A stretch of DNA of 45,081 nt from IMG/VR virus record IMGVR_UViG_3300022746_000031, positions 1-45,081 of that record. One strand, given 5' to 3'. Below, piece after piece: positions 1,419-42,481 of the stretch (its first letter is position 1; every line of letters starts with the position of its first letter). The translations under genes were made by a program, and so were the position numbers. The notes below the pieces were generated by a model. That model made no database searches, was not told where the DNA came from, and saw only the letters and a list, made by a program, of their open reading frames with translations. The stretch comes from a virus.

Positions 1419-2072
1419 TTAGTAGGGTAGGTCGATTAGGTCGGATACGTCTAGATCCCAGCCGTAGTGCCTAGCGCAAAACAGACGGGCAATGTTCACG
1501 CGCATAAAAGCTGCACGCTCAGCCTCGGCGGGCGGTGCTTCCCAACGGAAGGCAGGAAACCATCCGTTGAGCTCTAGAGGGTTAGGCTTACTGAATGGCA
1601 CCGGGGTTTCACCCTTGAACCAGGCTTCAGTAAGTGCAGGGGCAAACTCCCTCACCAACTGGTAAGGAATGTTGCGGTTGTCTAAGTCCTTAGCCGCTTT
1701 CATACGAAGCTCTTCGTGATTGTGGCGGTTGAATTTGCGAGCCTCGGTCAAGGCTTGGTGTTTGCGTGGATCGATGCCCTCGGCTATCTCAGCCAGTGGA
1801 GCGCGAACACCATTAGGTGCTTCGACTCTAGTGAACATCGTTCGGTTGCCCTGAACGTCCTTACCGTTAGCGCGTAGCCAGTTTTCAACGTCCGCTAGAC
1901 GATACCAAACGGCGTTGGATGACTCGTGGGTGTATTCGTCAAACTTAGCCAGGTGTCGGTATTGGTCCCTGCGCCACAGACGGATGGTTGATTTGGGGAT
2001 GCCCGTGAGGCTAGAAACATCTTCAATTTTTATGAGAGTGCCTAGCTGCGGATCTTCGATGCGTGTTGCCAA
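1419..2072 (-). CDS. Winged helix-turn-helix (MerR/excisionase-like) regulator, 217 aa
   Basis: It starts at TTG 2072 behind AAGGAAG. Residues 14-34 (IKIEDVSSLTGIPKSTIRLW) form a helix-turn-helix of the MerR/AlpA/excisionase type, followed by VWYRLADVENWL near 55-66, the usual wing-and-helix end of this fold. The rest (about 80-217) is helical and charged with no recognised domain. It is the first gene after a 260-base regulatory region with a good promoter and several inverted repeats, so it may regulate itself and nearby accessory genes. It is too long for a simple excisionase, and no integrase is present. Regulator role is inferred from fold and position. Confidence 0.7.
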   Translation of the reverse strand: MATRIEDPQLGTLIKIEDVSSLTGIPKSTIRLWRRDQYRHLAKFDEYTHESSNAVWYRLADVENWLRANGKDVQGNRTMFTRVEAPNGVRAPLAEIAEGIDPRKHQALTEARKFNRHNHEELRMKAAKDLDNRNIPYQLVREFAPALTEAWFKGETPVPFSKPNPLELNGWFPAFRWEAPPAEAERAAFMRVNIARLFCARHYGWDLDVSDLIDLPY

Positions 2073-2126
2073 TTTTCTTCCTTACTCTAGGATTCTAATA
2101 CTACCTATGGTTTTGTTAGTGTATTG

Positions 2127-2155
2127 AGTGTAACTCGGGGGACTTTGCTTGTAAA
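2127..2155 (-). promoter_or_regulatory. Putative promoter of the 217-aa regulator
   Basis: On the minus strand, TTTACA (2155-2150) is followed after 17 bases by TACACT (2132-2127), about 55 bases before the TTG start at 2072. The -10 overlaps two units of the 9-bp element (AATACACTA at 2125-2117 and a TTACACTC-type unit before it) that also forms arrays at 3752-3787 and 3917-3943. Confidence 0.6.
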
Positions 2156-2163
2156 GGGGTTTT

Positions 2164-2181
2164 AGGGGTCAAAATACCCCT
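2164..2181. repeat. Inverted repeat just upstream of the -35 box
   Basis: AGGGGT (2164-2169) and ACCCCT (2176-2181) are perfect arms around a 6-base loop. It sits nine bases upstream of the putative -35 of the 217-aa regulator promoter, a normal place for an operator. Confidence 0.45.
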
Positions 2182-2234
2182 TATTTAGCCATAAATTGCA
2201 ATTTTCTTATTAGTTCCTATGATTTTTATGTTGG

Positions 2235-2270
2235 GTGTTGGTTTTCTTAGAGTTATAGGAAAACTAACAC
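2235..2270. repeat. 12-bp inverted repeat in regulatory region
   Basis: GTGTTGGTTTTC (2235-2246) and GAAAACTAACAC (2259-2270) are inverted copies with one mismatch and a 12-base AT-rich centre. It lies in the promoter region between the second zinc-ribbon gene and the 217-aa regulator and may be an operator or a structured leader. Confidence 0.45.
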
Positions 2271-2319
2271 TCAATGTGTGATTTTGGCTAAGGGCTTGCG
2301 GAATGTTTTTTGCGTAATA

Positions 2320-2338
2320 AGTGAGAATCATTCTCACT
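2320..2338. promoter_or_regulatory. Fur-box-like palindrome
   Basis: AGTGAGAAT-C-ATTCTCACT is a perfect 9-1-9 palindrome. Its core TGAGAATCATTCTCA has the 7-1-7 layout of Fur-family operators (TGATAATNATTATCA), with one G/C substitution in each arm. It overlaps the stop of the second zinc-ribbon gene and lies about 170 bases upstream of the regulator promoter. No T-run follows on either strand, so it is not a terminator. A metalloregulator site is an inference from the pattern alone. Confidence 0.4.
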
Positions 2339-2480
2339 AAGGGGAGGGCTGATTGACGTTTCCATTCGGCACGTCATCGCCGAAGAATACGGGGGAGCAT
2401 GACGGGTAGGCGCAACTGGTGCAGAGCTGTGTAAGGTTCACCTCGTCACAGAATGGGCAACAGTAAAAGTCTGGGCGCAT
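2337..2480 (-). CDS. Small zinc-ribbon protein 2, 47 aa
   Basis: It starts at ATG 2480 in a TAATG overlap with zinc-ribbon protein 1. It begins MRPDFYCCPFCDEVNLTQLC and has a CPFC pair followed by LCTSC and a further cysteine, enough for one treble-clef or rubredoxin-like zinc site. The C-terminal tail is short, FFGDDVPNG then NVNQPSP. Two adjacent mini zinc-binding proteins suggest roles as nucleic-acid or host-protein adaptors. Function unknown. Confidence 0.65.
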   Translation of the reverse strand: MRPDFYCCPFCDEVNLTQLCTSCAYPSCSPVFFGDDVPNGNVNQPSP

Positions 2481-2599
2481 TAGATAACCTCCCATCGGTA
2501 AAAGTCCTCATCGCATTCAGGGCAAAAAGCGTAGTAACCGGGAGTTGCGTTATTCAAGTCCACTGCATTGTGGCAACGTGGGCATTCAGGCGCGTTCAT
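2480..2599 (-). CDS. Small zinc-ribbon protein 1, 39 aa
   Basis: The ATG at 2599 overlaps the stop of the 196-aa gene (TAATG). It begins MNAPECPRCHNAVDLNN and holds two CxxC pairs, CPRC and CPEC, separated by about 20 residues including GYYAF, a compact zinc ribbon. It ends YRWEVI at a TAATG that starts the next zinc-ribbon gene. The unbroken coupling of three genes is good evidence that it is translated. Confidence 0.7.
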   Translation of the reverse strand: MNAPECPRCHNAVDLNNATPGYYAFCPECDEDFYRWEVI

Positions 2600-3189
2600 T
2601 ACTCCACCTCTATTTCAAAGGCGAGCTCAAGAGCCTCGGCGCAAGTGTTCAGCGAGGGTGTCCAAAACTCATCGGTCAAAGACGGAAGCACAAAGTCACG
2701 GCGATAATCAGGATCGGATTCCCAGGTGAGGTGCTTGCGAGTGTAGCCAGCATCCTCATTGGTCCAGACGGTGGCACGCTCAAGGAAGACGGTGTAAAGG
2801 TCATTCCGTAGAAAGGATTCAGTTTCGTGGATGAGCTCAGGCAAAACTGATTCGTTTTTGTAGTAGTAGAAAACGCGCCAGTAATCCCCCTGAGAATAGC
2901 CACGGGCATCTTTGAAGCCAGAGGCATAGCCCTCATTGGCGACAAGGTTCGACAAGGCACTTTCAAACTCTGGTCCGTAGTCGTTTCCAGGTTCGGCTAT
3001 CTCGGCCGCGAGACTGGTAACGTCAAGTGGTCCAACGTCTGCGCCATAACTACGGCGGGTTGCTGCGATCCAGACACCCCAGGTATCGGATTCCCCGAGG
3101 ATTTCCTCAAGGGAAACTGAATACTGGTTATCCTCAACGCGGATACGGGTGAGACTGTCGATTTCGTAAAGCTGCACTGCATCGTTCAT
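2599..3189 (-). CDS. Hypothetical acidic protein, 196 aa
   Basis: It starts at ATG 3189 and ends in a TAATG overlap with the zinc-ribbon gene. It is acidic and aromatic, beginning MNDAVQLYEIDSLTRIRVED, with a central GYASGFKDARGYSQGDYWRV and an acidic C-terminal helix (AEALELAFEIEVE). It has no membrane segment and no motif I recognise. It is one of the largest proteins of the accessory block, and its length and coupling argue that it is real. Confidence 0.75.
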   Translation of the reverse strand: MNDAVQLYEIDSLTRIRVEDNQYSVSLEEILGESDTWGVWIAATRRSYGADVGPLDVTSLAAEIAEPGNDYGPEFESALSNLVANEGYASGFKDARGYSQGDYWRVFYYYKNESVLPELIHETESFLRNDLYTVFLERATVWTNEDAGYTRKHLTWESDPDYRRDFVLPSLTDEFWTPSLNTCAEALELAFEIEVE

Positions 3190-27957: not shown

Positions 27958-30129
27958 TTGGCTATTCATCTTCAACTTCGACGTGGCACTGCCGCTGAAT
28001 GGGCTAGCGCCAACCCCACCCTAATGCAGGGTGAGATGGGTGTTGAAAGTGATACCCTCAAGGTCAAGATTGGCAATGGTACTAGCAACTGGGCTTCGCT
28101 TTCCTACTTCACTCAGGGTGCCGCTGGCTTGTCTGCTTACCAGGTTGCTGTTGCTAATGGCTATACCGGAACTGCTACTGCTTGGCTTACCTCGCTGATT
28201 GGTCCCACTGGACCCGCCAACTCACTTGCTGTAGGTACGGTAACTACTGGTGCCGCTGGCTCTAGCGCAGCTGCCAACATTACTGGAACTGCACCTTCCC
28301 AGGTTTTATCGCTTACTATCCCTAAAGGCGATACTGGCGCTACTGGTCCCGCTGGTCCAGCAAACTCACTTGCTGTAGGTACTGTAACTACTGGAGCTGC
28401 TGGTTCAAATGTTGCGGCAACAATTACCGGCACCTCGCCTTCTCAGACGCTAAACCTGACCATTCCCCGTGGCGACACTGGTGCTACTGGTGCTACTGGT
28501 CCACAGGGTCCTATAGGTCTTACTGGACCATCCAACGTCCTAAGCGTAGGTACTGTAACTACTGGCACTGCTGGATCAGCGGCAGCGGCAACTATTACCG
28601 GGACTTCACCTGCCCAGACTTTGAACCTAACTATTCCGAAGGGTGATACAGGAGCTACTGGTGCTACTGGAGCCACTGGTCCACAAGGTCCACAAGGTAT
28701 TCAGGGTTTGACTGGTGCTACTGGACCAACTGGAGCAACTGGCGCTACTGGACCAACTGGTGCCACTGGACCTGCTGGACCTGCCAATACGCTTACTGTC
28801 GGCACTGTTGCTTCGGGAGCTGCACCTGCCGTAACCATTTCAGGTACATCGCCAAATCAGACAATTGATTTTGTATTCCAAAAAGGTGACACTGGGGCAA
28901 CGGGTGCTACTGGAGCCACTGGTGCCACTGGAGCAACTGGTGCTACTGGACCGCAAGGACCACAAGGTATTCAAGGTGCAACGGGCGCTACTGGAGCAAC
29001 TGGTGCTACTGGCGCTGGCGTACAGGTTGGTGGAACTACTAACCAGATCCTTGCTAAGGCTTCTAACACAGACTTTGATACTCAGTGGGTGAATGCGCCA
29101 AACTCGCCTAATGGTATCCCCACTGGCGGTACTGCTGGTCAAATCTTGTCGAAGGTTGATGCAACAAATTACAATGCAACTTGGATTGATAACTACTCAA
29201 CCTCGGTAAGCCACTTAGTCAAAGCCTCTGTTGCAATCAATAAGGGGCAACCTGTTTATGTAAGTTCTGCTGACGGAACAAACATGATTGTTTCACTAGC
29301 TGGAAATGCTTCTGAATCGACATCAAGTAAAACTATGGGTCTCCTTGATGCCACTGTTGCTATCAATGGCATGGCTAACGTAGTTACTGAAGGATTACTT
29401 GCTGGGCTGAATACCTCTACTGCTACTGCTGGTGATCCAGTTTGGCTAGGCGCATCTGGAACCTTGCTGTACGGTCTTGCTAATAAGCCAGTAGCACCAT
29501 TACACATGGTTTTCATCGGTATTGTTACGCGTGTTAGCGCCACTAATGGTGAAATCTTTATTCGACCTCAAAATGGTTTTGAACTTGAAGAACTTCACAA
29601 TGTGCTAATTACTTCTGCTACTAATGGCGATCTAATCAAGTTCGATAGTGCCACTGGTCTTTGGAAGAACACTCCACAATCAACACTAACTGTTGCTGAG
29701 TCTCAGGTCACTGGTCTTGTAGCCGACCTAGCCCTAAAGGCACCTACTGCTTCACCTACTTTTACTGGTACCGTCACCACTCCATTGACTACTGCTGGCT
29801 TTGTAAAAACTTCAGCAGGTGGAGTCCTGTCTTCGGTTGCCGCTATTGCTGAGTCCGATGTCACCAACCTGGTTAGCGACTTGGCGGCTAAAGCACCTAC
29901 CGCTTCACCTACTTTTACTGGAACTGTTACTACTCCACTAACTACTGCTGGCTTCGTAAAGACCTCGGCAGGTGGTATCCTATCCTCAGTCGCCGCTATC
30001 GCGGAGTCTGATGTAACAAACCTTGTTAGCGACCTGGCTGGTAAGGCACCAACTTCTCACACTCATACACTTTCGCAAATCACGGACTATGTAGCACCAT
30101 TGAATCCGTTCATGCTAATGGGAGCATAA
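27958..30129 (+). CDS. Collagen-like tail fibre, 723 aa
   Basis: It starts at TTG 27958, with GGAGG about eight bases upstream. Residues 3-53 ([40 protein letters not shown]) match the N-terminal domain of Mtd-type tropism proteins. Four units of about 50 residues follow, each ending in a collagen-like run of GAT/GPQ triplets, up to about residue 350. The C-terminal third has two near-identical 51-residue repeats (594-695) and the ending [11 protein letters not shown]. The protein would be a trimeric, extended fibre. Receptor specificity is unknown. Confidence 0.85.
29737..30042 (+). repeat. Two tandem 51-codon repeats in the collagen-like fibre
   Basis: The units at 29737-29889 and 29890-30042 encode [20 protein letters not shown] and following residues, differing at only two positions (V/I and A/G). 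At DNA level they differ at many third positions, so the duplication is old and the protein sequence is conserved by selection. A third copy is partial (KAPTSHTH). Confidence 0.8.
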
Positions 30130-34389: not shown

Positions 34390-35336
34390 AGACTCCATCC
34401 CCAGAGTGGGATACCGTCCGTCAATCCACACCAGTAATCATCAAGCCACCAAGAGCAGCAAAGAAACCAGACACTGCACATAAGGTAAATGTTATTTTGC
34501 CTGACCCGCAGATTGGTTATCGCAACCTTGAAGGCGTACTGGATCCATTCCATGATGAGCGAGCAATGAGTGTCGCTCTACAAATCACCGACTACCTATA
34601 TAAGACTGACCGTGTAGATACCGTCATAAACCTTGGCGACTTCCTAGATTTGCCTAGCCAAGGTAAGTATGAGCAGGAACCAGCCTTCGCTGGCACTACA
34701 CAGTTAGCAATCAACCGTGGACACAAGTTCCTTCAAGAGCAACGAGCAGCAGCTGGTGAACAGGCTGAGATTGTTTTGATTGAAGGAAACCACGACCGCC
34801 GAATGGAGAAGTTCATTCTCATCAACTCGGCAGCAGCCTGGGGCTTGAAGCGAGCCAACATGGACATGCTCCCCGTAATGAGTATTCCCTATCTACTTAG
34901 ATTGGATGAAATAGGTGTCAACTACATTGATGCTTACCCTGCTGGTGCTTACTGGCTCAACCGCAACCTTCGCGCTATTCATGGTTATAAAGTTAGGTCG
35001 GGAGGTTCGACAGCTGCGGCGTACACTAACGATACTCCGCACATCTCTACCGTATTCGGGCATATCCATCGTCAAGAGGTCCAGTCAAAGACAGTTTTCG
35101 ACCGTGACGGATCCATTAGATCGTCAGCAATTTCTCCTGGATGTCTTTGCCGAGTAGATGGCGCTGTACCTAGCGTCAATGGTTCAACCAAGATTGATGG
35201 TAGCCCAGCAAAGTTTTGGGAAAACTGGCAACAGGGAATTGCTGTAATCACCACTGAAGGTGACGAGTTTTACACAGAATTGGTGCAAATCAATGACGGT
35301 ATTGCTTGGTTCCGTGGAGTGAAATTTACTGCTTAG
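34368..35336 (+). CDS. Metallophosphoesterase, 322 aa
   Basis: It starts at GTG 34368 or the ATG two codons on. The calcineurin-like motifs are complete: D46 in LPDPQIG, GDFLD (90-94), GNHDR (140-144), H205 in IHGYK and GHIH (231-234). The protein would be a two-metal phosphatase or phosphodiesterase; the substrate is not evident. It overlaps the HTH gene by 22 bases, and converges with the HNH gene at its end. Confidence 0.85.
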   Translation: MPMLQDLKTPSPEWDTVRQSTPVIIKPPRAAKKPDTAHKVNVILPDPQIGYRNLEGVLDPFHDERAMSVALQITDYLYKTDRVDTVINLGDFLDLPSQGKYEQEPAFAGTTQLAINRGHKFLQEQRAAAGEQAEIVLIEGNHDRRMEKFILINSAAAWGLKRANMDMLPVMSIPYLLRLDEIGVNYIDAYPAGAYWLNRNLRAIHGYKVRSGGSTAAAYTNDTPHISTVFGHIHRQEVQSKTVFDRDGSIRSSAISPGCLCRVDGAVPSVNGSTKIDGSPAKFWENWQQGIAVITTEGDEFYTELVQINDGIAWFRGVKFTA

Positions 35337-35880
35337 CGCCTTTTAGTAGATTACATCTAGCATGTGATGGCTTTACATTATCTAAATCATTTCTACCGCC
35401 TTTTGAGATTGGTATCACATGATCTAGATGCAGAGCCATTTCCCATCCAGCCTTGCCGACTGATCTTGGCGCAGAAAAATCTATTTCAATAGAGCAGATG
35501 TGGCATAAAGTACCATAACGATTGATTACATCTACTTCCGTATAAAAGCTACCGGGAATGTTTCTTCTGCGAAGTTTTAGCCTACGGTTTTGGTCTCTAA
35601 GTTTGTCTGGATTTTTGGCTCTCCAAGTTCTAGTTTTTAGTCTTTCAACTTCTAAATCTAGGGTAGCTAGTCGCTTCTTTTTGCGTGCGTCTGCATGTTT
35701 TTGTTTGTTTTCAGCGTGCCACTTTTTACTAGATATCTTATTTCTTTCAGAATGTAATGCTGAATATGCTTTTCTACATTCTTTACACTGAGAATGTAGT
35801 CCATCTTTATTGGATTTATTCTTTCCAAATAAACTTGAGTCTTTTTCGGATTTACAGCAATTGCAAATTTTAGTTTGCAT
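35326..35880 (-). CDS. HNH endonuclease, 184 aa
   Basis: The N-terminus has a zinc finger common in phage HNH proteins (C6, C9 and C32, C35 with SNKDGLHSQCKEC). The middle is very basic (ADARKKKRLATLDLEVERLK). The HNH core is at about 126-176: CHIC, H151-L-D-H154 in HLDHVIPISKGG, N168 and H173-ARC176. The coding sequence is visibly richer in A and T than its neighbours, suggesting recent arrival as a homing-type element. It overlaps the upstream gene by 11 bases and the end of the convergent phosphoesterase gene. Confidence 0.85.
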   Translation of the reverse strand: MQTKICNCCKSEKDSSLFGKNKSNKDGLHSQCKECRKAYSALHSERNKISSKKWHAENKQKHADARKKKRLATLDLEVERLKTRTWRAKNPDKLRDQNRRLKLRRRNIPGSFYTEVDVINRYGTLCHICSIEIDFSAPRSVGKAGWEMALHLDHVIPISKGGRNDLDNVKPSHARCNLLKGAKQ

Positions 35881-40739: not shown

Positions 40740-40999
40740 TAGAAACTCTTCATTCTGTAATTAGCACCATAAATACCCAGGTGCTTAGTGATCCAACGCC
40801 AGAACGCATCATTGTCCGGTGCTGGCTGGTTGTTGAAGTGATGAGCCAGCGACTCATACTTCTTTGGCGAGAAATCCTGCTCCCCTTCAGACTTTTTTAT
40901 CTGACGATAGATGCGCTTGTAATGCTTCTGACACATCCCGTGATAGTTAGCCTGCCCACCACAATCCTCAATGCGACAAGACCCTGCATGAAGCCCCAT
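40739..40999 (-). CDS. Small zinc-finger protein, 86 aa
   Basis: ATG 40999 overlaps the stop of the methyltransferase beta gene. Residues 8-26 carry a phage-type zinc knuckle: C8, C13, C23 and H26 in CRIEDCGGQANYHGMCQKHY. The remainder is basic and helical with aromatic residues near the end (DAFWRWITKHLGIYG). Probably DNA-binding; it may assist the neighbouring methyltransferase or nuclease. Confidence 0.7.
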   Translation of the reverse strand: MGLHAGSCRIEDCGGQANYHGMCQKHYKRIYRQIKKSEGEQDFSPKKYESLAHHFNNQPAPDNDAFWRWITKHLGIYGANYRMKSF

Positions 41000-42129
41000 T
41001 AGAGTACTCCCTCAAGCAGGATGGACAGGGCAAGCATTGCCTGCTGAGGAACAACGCCATTACCACAGGCTTTGAGTTCCTGGTTGCGCTTTAGTCCGCA
41101 GTCAGTGATCCAGCCCTCTGGCAAGCCCATCATCCATTCAGTAAATGAAGACGATAGACGATGCGCTCCGTCCCGACCATCAGGCTTAGTTGGTGCAGGT
41201 GCAGGACGACCTAGAACAGCCTCCCAGCGCCTGATAGCAGGCTCAAACTTACCCCAGTTGGTAATCATTACCTGGTCTTCAATACGAGCCTTTGGTGCGC
41301 CAGCCTCAACCTCCGCAGCTGAGTGTCCGTTAGCCATTGAGGTGCGTGGAGTGCCTAGCAATACCTCGCCACTGTGCAGTACAGCGCGTTCAATTGAGTC
41401 AGTTTGTAGCACTCCATTGCGATAATGAGGCTGAGTGTCACCCTTCCAATCGCGAGACATCGGAGTGGGAAGCAAGTCCTTGACCAACTTGCCATCAACC
41501 ATTGAAAAGGTTTCCCCCTCTTCCCAATCGACGCCAATAGCCTCAGTGAGGTGATTGAGGTTGATGCCACGGTTTTTGCCATTGGCAAGGTTCTCAATGG
41601 CTATGGATCGAAGCACAGTGCCATCTCGCTGGTCGGTAGCGGTTGGGGTGGGAAGTAACCGGACGGCTACACCGAGTGAGACACCAGGCATACCCTTGTA
41701 TTCGCCGTTCTCGAACTTATCGCGACGGGCTAGGTATTCCTCAACTGGCTCATCATGGTTGCGTAGATGGGCAACCGATGGCGTCGGGAGCAGACTCTTG
41801 GTGATGCTCTCAGAAACCTTCAAACCATTCTCGAAAGCAATCTCAGCCGCCTGGTCGGCTACCTTGACCATACGTCCGCGTTCACGAGCCTGTTGCTCGC
41901 TGATAGCACCGCCAGTCGAGTCAGTGACGCTGGGGGTACGCAACAATAAAGACTCGGAATCGGTTGTGGGGAGCGCCAGCGTCAGCTGCTTTGAGACCAA
42001 TCCACTTCGCATCATACCCGAGGTCTGCCAAGTCTCCGAGAACGGCTCCCATGGCTCTGATAGGAGGCTTTCCGGCAAGTATTGCCAAATCTTCTTCTCC
42101 GTATTCCATTCCATTATTTGCTTTGGCAC
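40999..42129 (-). CDS. C5 cytosine methyltransferase, beta part (LLPTP repeats, motifs IX-X), 376 aa
   Basis: It starts at GTG 42129 with its own AAGGGG eight bases upstream, inside the alpha gene; 209 bases are read in two frames. Residues 25-45 (EPWEPFSETWQTSGMMRSG) match a segment of phage methyltransferase proteins. A repeated LLPTP-type motif occurs five times (about 62, 113, 158, 219 and 257), each followed by a short D/G/N-rich loop. The C-terminus has a motif IX-like RLSSSFTEWMMGLPEGW (324-340) and a motif X-like ACGNGVVPQQAMLAL (354-368). It would supply target recognition to the alpha part, as in two-chain enzymes such as M.AquI and M.EcoHK31I. Confidence 0.8.
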   Translation of the reverse strand: MPKQIMEWNTEKKIWQYLPESLLSEPWEPFSETWQTSGMMRSGLVSKQLTLALPTTDSESLLLRTPSVTDSTGGAISEQQARERGRMVKVADQAAEIAFENGLKVSESITKSLLPTPSVAHLRNHDEPVEEYLARRDKFENGEYKGMPGVSLGVAVRLLPTPTATDQRDGTVLRSIAIENLANGKNRGINLNHLTEAIGVDWEEGETFSMVDGKLVKDLLPTPMSRDWKGDTQPHYRNGVLQTDSIERAVLHSGEVLLGTPRTSMANGHSAAEVEAGAPKARIEDQVMITNWGKFEPAIRRWEAVLGRPAPAPTKPDGRDGAHRLSSSFTEWMMGLPEGWITDCGLKRNQELKACGNGVVPQQAMLALSILLEGVL

Positions 42130-42481
42130 TTAGTAAACCCCTTACGTTTTCGATTACTACTAGTTTTGGTTTGATTTCTTCGATTGCACGAGCAAACTCG
42201 CTCCACAATCCTGATCTAGTTCCGTCAGTCAGCCCTGCACGTTTTCCAGCCAGCGACAAGTCCTGACAGGGAAAGCCACCAGTAAGGATGTCTACAGGCT
42301 CGACTTGAGTGAAGTCAATCTTGGTGACGTCACGATAGTTGGGGATACCAGGGAAGTTCTTCTCCAGTATCTTGGCGGGAGCATCGTCCCATTCACAGTG
42401 CCATGCAACGCTGGCACCAGTCATAGCCTCAACCGCTAGGTCAAGTCCTCCGTAGCCGGAGAATAGGCTACCGATTTTCAT
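41921..42481 (-). CDS. C5 cytosine methyltransferase, alpha part (catalytic), 186 aa
   Basis: ATG 42481 with GGGAG eight bases upstream. Motif I is GSLFSGYGGLDLAVEA (4-19), motif IV with the catalytic Cys is GGFPCQDLSLAGKRAGL (C72), motif VI is VVIENVRGLL (E111), and motif VIII is GAPHNRFRVFIVAYP (169-183). It stops shortly after motif VIII and has no target-recognition domain or motifs IX-X, which are in the beta gene. It would bind AdoMet and form the covalent cytosine intermediate. It cannot be complete on its own. Confidence 0.9.
   Translation of the reverse strand: MKIGSLFSGYGGLDLAVEAMTGASVAWHCEWDDAPAKILEKNFPGIPNYRDVTKIDFTQVEPVDILTGGFPCQDLSLAGKRAGLTDGTRSGLWSEFARAIEEIKPKLVVIENVRGLLSAKANNGMEYGEEDLAILAGKPPIRAMGAVLGDLADLGYDAKWIGLKAADAGAPHNRFRVFIVAYPQRH

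Follow-up and report, generated by a model that had tools for sequence, protein, structure and literature searches.

Dual-coded overlap between the two halves of a probable split C5-cytosine methyltransferase in a virus and its actinophage and actinobacterial relatives

Long same-strand overlaps in which both reading frames are selected have rarely been demonstrated in bacteria and DNA phages. The chains of the methyltransferase M.EcoHK31I are said, after Lee et al. 1995, to come from overlapping reading frames. M.EcoHK31I is a two-chain C5 methyltransferase with motif X and the target recognition domain (TRD) on alpha and only motif IX on beta (PMC3404938), whereas in M.AquI (PMC3404938, citing Karreman & de Waard 1990) two genes encode a larger chain with motifs I-VIII and a smaller one with the later variable region and motifs IX-X. 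The Bacillus phages SPR, phi3T and H2 encode multispecific orphan C5 methyltransferases that carry several tandem TRDs between motifs VIII and IX (PMC8936443), and the methylase gene of the actinophage ShiLan contains an out-of-frame HNH element with a GTG start (PMC11855218).

The window analysed here (the whole 45,081 nt stretch of viral DNA, positions 1 to 45,081 of IMG/VR record IMGVR_UViG_3300022746_000031) carries an overlapping gene pair on its minus strand, with the following features:

41921..42481, minus strand: alpha gene, the catalytic half (ORF read from 42481 to 41921; ATG start, 186 aa, C5 methyltransferase motifs I-VIII)
40999..42129, minus strand: beta gene (GTG start, 376 aa, frame +1 to alpha; N-terminal segment, LPTP module array and motifs IX-X)
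41921..42129, minus strand: dual-coded overlap of exactly 209 nt, in frames 0 (alpha) and +1 (beta)
41933..41977, minus strand: alpha motif VIII, GAPHNRFRVFIVAYP, within the overlap
42059..42124, minus strand: alpha residues 120-141, a variable insert relative to M.HhaI, whose bases also encode the conserved W-N-x5-W segment of beta
42138..42143, minus strand: AAGGGG, probable Shine-Dalgarno element of beta, formed by alpha codons V113-R114-G115 (GTA AGG GGT), 8 nt before the GTG
42127..42129, minus strand: GTG start codon of beta, inside alpha codons S118-A119 (S118+1), with a beta-frame TAA directly upstream
41947..42129, minus strand: N-terminal segment of beta (beta-N), residues 1-61, MEWN...W...EPFSETWxTSGMMRSG
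41260..41946, minus strand: beta module array, five LL[RPG]TP modules starting at beta residues 62, 113, 158, 219 and 257
41011..41256, minus strand: motifs IX-X region of beta, WGKFEPAIRRWE ... RLSSSFTEWMMGLPEGW ... LKACGNGVVPQQA, corresponding to PHROG 363 positions 259-309

Elsewhere in the window, the list of ORFs includes a probable HNH endonuclease (35326-35880, minus strand; CxxC pairs and an HNH-like C-terminus) and a long ORF with collagen-like G-x-y repeats, probably a tail fibre (27958-30129, plus strand).

Alpha belongs to the C5-cytosine DNA methyltransferases (PF00145), as its sequence contains, in order, the SAM-binding motif I, motif IV (the PCQ catalytic loop), motif VI (ENV) and motif VIII. 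Its PF00145 match spans positions 1-163 of 324, i.e. the first half of the family (E 2.8e-42), and it further matches TIGR00675 (130 bits) and M.HhaI (E 1e-19), residues 120-141 having no counterpart in the M.HhaI alignment. In the window alpha ends 3 codons past motif VIII; in 128 of 129 split loci it stops 2-14 residues past this motif (with differing tails and stop codons), which indicates that the end of alpha is placed and not random. Beta matches PHROG 1008 ‘DNA methyltransferase’ (E 4.9e-58) and is conserved from its start in an alignment of 96 sequences (A2), in which W8, N9, W15, W34, G38 and G43 are each at least 90% conserved. Its motifs IX and X, which supply those of the PF00145 family, are recognised by homology (through fused homologues and the order of domains in two PHROGs): alpha matches the N-terminal and beta, weakly, the C-terminal parts of PHROG 363 (alpha 54-217, beta 259-309) and PHROG 116 (alpha 208-373, beta 424-482). 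Beta alone has no Pfam match, its profile found no match among PDB sequences, its predicted structure gave no significant PDB fold match, and its direct alignment with M.HhaI over IX-X scores 0.1 bits; the AF2 model has low confidence over most modules, its confident parts being the IX-X region and portions of modules 1 and 2.

Between motifs VIII and IX the tandem modules (about 40 aa each) number five in the window and 0-6 in relatives, an arrangement shared with the multispecific tandem-TRD C5 methyltransferases, in which case each module might read one target. We consider that these L(P/R/G)TP modules probably read the target sequence, since the array sits where target recognition domains lie in C5 methyltransferases. 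The motif VIII peptide IVAYP of alpha, when read in frame +1, becomes the LLRTP signature that opens beta module 1, and many of 181 loci have tetrapeptides of the LPTP/LRTP/LRSP type at this motif. One stretch of DNA (window 41933-41977) thus serves as both motif VIII and the module boundary, and it is possibly a recombination junction.

With motifs I-VIII on one chain and IX-X on another, the pair is of the M.AquI type. The preliminary description had assigned motifs I, IV, VI and VIII to alpha only and IX-X to beta only, and this division stands: the PF00145 match of alpha stops at 163 of 324 and IX-X-like sequence is found only in beta. It had also cited M.AquI and M.EcoHK31I as precedents, of which the former fits and the latter, although likewise two-chained, distributes its motifs differently (in the window it is beta that carries the TRD-like array and both IX and X, and alpha ends 3 codons after motif VIII). 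Although its motif division is that of M.AquI, the window pair differs in the distinctive N-terminal segment of beta encoded on top of motif VIII and in the multi-module array that replaces the ordinary variable region; its 209 shared nt, with both frames selected, may be a further difference. The modules resemble the tandem TRDs of the SPR, phi3T and H2 enzymes in layout, and those enzymes are single chains with no dual coding known. ShiLan resembles the window in that the methylase gene of an actinophage also encodes, out of frame and from a GTG start, a second protein, but there the second frame is a mobile endonuclease inserted into the methylase, whereas in the window it is very probably the other half of the same enzyme. 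The fused ‘DNA methyltransferase’ genes (Tweety gp72 and Streptomyces chromosomal genes) have a homologous alpha, +1 beta-N, modules and IX-X; they differ in that IX-X is in frame with alpha (giving a one-chain catalytic enzyme) and the +1 product ends before IX-X. The open literature searched contained no earlier description of the overlap in this methyltransferase family, although one may exist elsewhere.

Both ORFs that had been proposed to share 209 bases in different frames exist, and the shared bases encode, as had been read, motif VIII in the alpha frame and EPWEPFSETWQTSGMMRSG in the beta frame. For the window sequence alone, resampling of the alpha codons leaves the beta frame free of stops with a probability of 0.005. 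In a set of 94 viral homologues of alpha (mostly 66-86% identity, aligned by codons), the overlap contains one beta-frame stop, whereas resampling the synonymous codons of alpha from each sequence's own usage leads one to expect 275 (never fewer than 244 in 200 trials). As this null keeps codon usage and not phylogeny, the exact ratios are approximate, and the upstream stretch of the same sequences serves as a phylogeny-matched control: in two 66-codon stretches upstream of the overlap the +1 frame contains stops in 93 and 94 of the 94 sequences. Within the overlap the mean identity of +1 residues is 0.46 (null 0.27, sd 0.002), and the conserved beta residues W, W, W and G, which lie at alpha positions 125, 132, 151 and 155, reach pairwise identities of 0.92-1.00 (null 0.28-0.49). 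Furthermore, the synonymous third bases of alpha are more alike in the overlap than upstream (identity 0.64 vs 0.46, p 6.6e-11), and the ratio of diversity at codon position 3 to that at position 1 falls from 2.7 outside the overlap to 0.98 at alpha 120-141 and 1.8 at 142-183, which indicates that beta is the more constrained reading over residues 120-141 and that both readings are held over 142-183. The two genes are thus a dual-coding pair with purifying selection on both frames over the shared bases; the preliminary description had named conservation of a single frame as grounds for rejection, and essentially every relative tested keeps both frames throughout the shared bases. Its claim that beta has its own AAGGGG and GTG inside alpha is correct for the window (8 nt spacing) and does not extend to all relatives: a GTG occupies this position in 57 of the 94, and the remainder appear to start beta at an ATG 18 nt upstream. 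An element of the AGGGG type precedes beta in most of the relatives with a GTG start, and R114 is encoded by AGG in 53 of 94.

The fused form, with IX-X in frame with alpha, occurs in actinobacterial genomes and several phages, and such natural in-frame fusions can cover PF00145 end to end (1-316 of 324 in L158, 1-321 of 324 in L160). In a Tsukamurella locus (L129) one frame holds motifs I-VIII, a beta-N-like segment (GLFGTIPFEDRWPAAGCIVDGVAYEV, a weak match of 14 bits), LPTP modules and IX-X; its AF2 model reaches a pLDDT mostly above 90 in the catalytic domain and the IX-X region, falls below 50 in most of the modules, and resembles M.HhaI over its catalytic domain (E 4.6e-14). A scan of IMG/VR for close relatives of this single chain returned only its own prophage. 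Natural fusions that match the family from end to end are the strongest evidence for a shared function, and from sequence comparison we consider it very likely that alpha and beta together make up a single orphan phage C5-cytosine methyltransferase, as had been suggested before. We infer that a single mRNA would serve both chains, with internal initiation of beta at the +1 GTG inside alpha, which has a ribosome-binding site of its own. Alpha would then supply cofactor binding and catalysis (motifs I-VIII), and beta the conserved N-terminal segment, the tandem modules of about 40 residues that probably read the target, and the IX-X region that would complete the fold. Associated as a two-chain C5 methyltransferase, they would mark the phage DNA with 5-methylcytosine, most likely against host restriction.

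A programmed +1 ribosomal frameshift that joins alpha to beta in one chain would be in line with the existence of single-chain relatives and with the CCC-C run at the end of alpha in the window (TAC CCC CAG), where a +1 slip would lead from motif VIII into module 1. Such a chain, however, would never contain beta residues 1-60, which hold the best conserved part of the overlap, and a programmed frameshift would always lose either motif VIII or the beta N-terminus. Moreover, a by-eye comparison of 129 split loci found variable alpha tails and stop contexts and no shared slippery site joining the frames, whereas the beta start codon and ribosome-binding site are conserved; variable alpha ends together with a conserved beta start fit two initiated chains, and we regard the frameshift as very improbable. 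The existence of single-chain relatives is likewise all that speaks for one gene broken by a sequencing or assembly frameshift, an explanation whose probability is practically negligible: L086, a contig from another metagenome, encodes proteins identical to those of the window (the overlap is therefore no assembly error), roughly 150 other viral loci have the same split geometry, and the genes overlap instead of abutting, with both frames selected. The frame-restoring indel that had been named as a possible refutation was not found, the whole viral clade of the window being split.

There is also a slim chance that alpha is a degenerate methyltransferase and that beta, although its gene overlaps, is an independent protein with another function. 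The phiBT1 homologue of alpha is annotated ‘DNA methylase may be inactive’, beta lacks a Pfam match of its own, and in fused relatives a conserved +1 product without IX-X implies that beta-N and modules can exist apart from IX-X. Against this, the C-terminus of beta supplies the motifs IX-X of this family that alpha lacks, and split and fused forms have interchanged at least 9 times, which would be expected only of functionally equivalent parts.

A survey of 264 loci (some contigs being present more than once) used profiles of alpha, beta-N and IX-X. In this survey 160 matches are split, a single +1 ORF holding both beta-N and IX-X, and 71 are fused, with beta-N nevertheless in +1 over alpha; IX-X lies in frame +2 in about 10. 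Split loci carry the LPTP-type modules in +1, and fused loci have +1 modules first and frame-0 modules after them (patterns such as 1000, 111 and 11000), frame +2 being almost empty in bacteria. The +1 beta-N score exceeds every codon-resampled control in 66 of 71 fused bacterial loci, and 16 fused loci with strong beta-N exhibit freezing of third bases (0.76-0.82 at peaks vs about 0.55). For beta-N of the Streptomyces type the resampling scores are weak (12-28 bits), since the profile was built on other lineages, and a codon-position test on 24 Streptomyces chromosomal loci was used instead. Codons 166-195, just past the catalytic half, have diversities of 0.29/0.07/0.006 and 0.17/0.03/0.04 at positions 1/2/3, which inverts the pattern of a frame-0 gene, so that these 30 codons are selected in frame +1: the +1 peptide PTSQLGRNGGPQHPDKRKAGGHGPTLEDEV varies by 0.01-0.05 and the frame-0 peptide by 0.20-0.33. 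From about codon 205, where LLPTP modules and IX-X follow, the frame-0 pattern returns. In all 24 loci a purine run resembling a Shine-Dalgarno element (mostly GGGGAGGGATCGCCG) stands 8 nt before the +1 GTG and, together with the diversity pattern, indicates that an apparently single methyltransferase gene contains a second, selected frame with its own likely start. The idea that the +1 WPTSGMTRxG is a mere by-product of the conserved alpha GYDAxW and GC-rich codons was ruled out by the resampling and by the inversion of positions 1 and 3 downstream of the conserved domain of alpha; that the fused genes are mere pseudogenes was ruled out by their open frames and by IX-X lying in 0 or +1 and almost never in +2. 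The simplest reading of the persistence of the overlap in fused forms is that beta-N and the leading modules would make a separate recognition chain that acts in trans.

The survey also yielded loci of other layouts. L010 (317-1821), L011, L014 and L237 consist of three pieces, each overlapping the next: alpha is followed in +1 by beta-N and two modules, and these in +2 by modules and IX-X. In L040 (3998-4591) alpha runs directly into the IX-X region, the recognition array being deleted, and the locus looks degraded or TRD-less. Tweety (L100) has two copies of alpha with +1 beta-N (661-1446 and 2001-3113; gp69 and gp72), of which gp69 lacks an in-frame IX-X.

A tree of 123 alpha domains requires 10 split/fused changes, at least 9 of them forced by well supported branches, and the two forms have apparently been interchanged by exchange of modules that changes the frame. 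In two Gordonia phages, the split Geodirt and the fused Stultus, alpha and beta-N are almost the same and modules and IX-X are shared, and the difference between them is exchanged modules that change the frame. Another counted change, Jarcob/ShiLan (98% identical), was given no weight, the frame change inside alpha of Jarcob (before motif VIII) being one that may be a mutation or a sequence error. The window forms a clade with 28 other IMG/VR relatives and one contig from a Microbacteriaceae MAG, all split and near Microbacteriaceae prophages, which makes an actinobacterial host likely. Because the frame-0 catalytic half and the frame +1 beta-N half overlap and are both open, module exchange may leave IX-X in either frame, and we tentatively suggest, as a possibility somewhat short of even, a frame-toggling modular methyltransferase. 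IX-X in +1 would give alpha plus a beta-N-modules-IX-X chain (split); IX-X in 0 would give alpha-modules-IX-X plus beta-N with the first modules (fused), beta-N still being part of a separate recognition chain in trans.

Beta matches 571 GenBank phage records and has relatives in dozens of actinobacterial chromosomes. Their treatment in GenBank is inconsistent, alpha or beta being omitted, trimmed or labelled ‘may be inactive’: the records of Abidatro and Orcanus trim beta to begin after alpha, that of Geodirt is without alpha, and those of Vash and DrYang list two overlapping genes. In phiBT1 (L270) the gene so labelled, gp9.1 (NC_004664 27120-27620), probably encodes the alpha chain of a split enzyme, since beta-N, modules and motifs IX-X lie in a +1 ORF (locus 1917-2849) that has no annotation.

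The preliminary description had regarded a long dual-coded segment with both frames conserved as a notable phage case, which is accurate and understated: this is a widespread actinophage and actinobacterial architecture that persists where the methyltransferase is a single chain. Two-chain C5 methyltransferases were already known; the surprising parts are the length and depth of the overlap, which is unusually long, old and selected, and the proposed frame-toggling. The overlap is testable in the laboratory phages phiBT1, Tweety and Geodirt/Stultus, and the modules may be a source of portable C5 target recognition. The family is a natural setting for comparing one-chain and two-chain forms of a single enzyme and, should frame toggling prove true, two of the three frames would give a working enzyme, making the array tolerant of frame-changing recombination.
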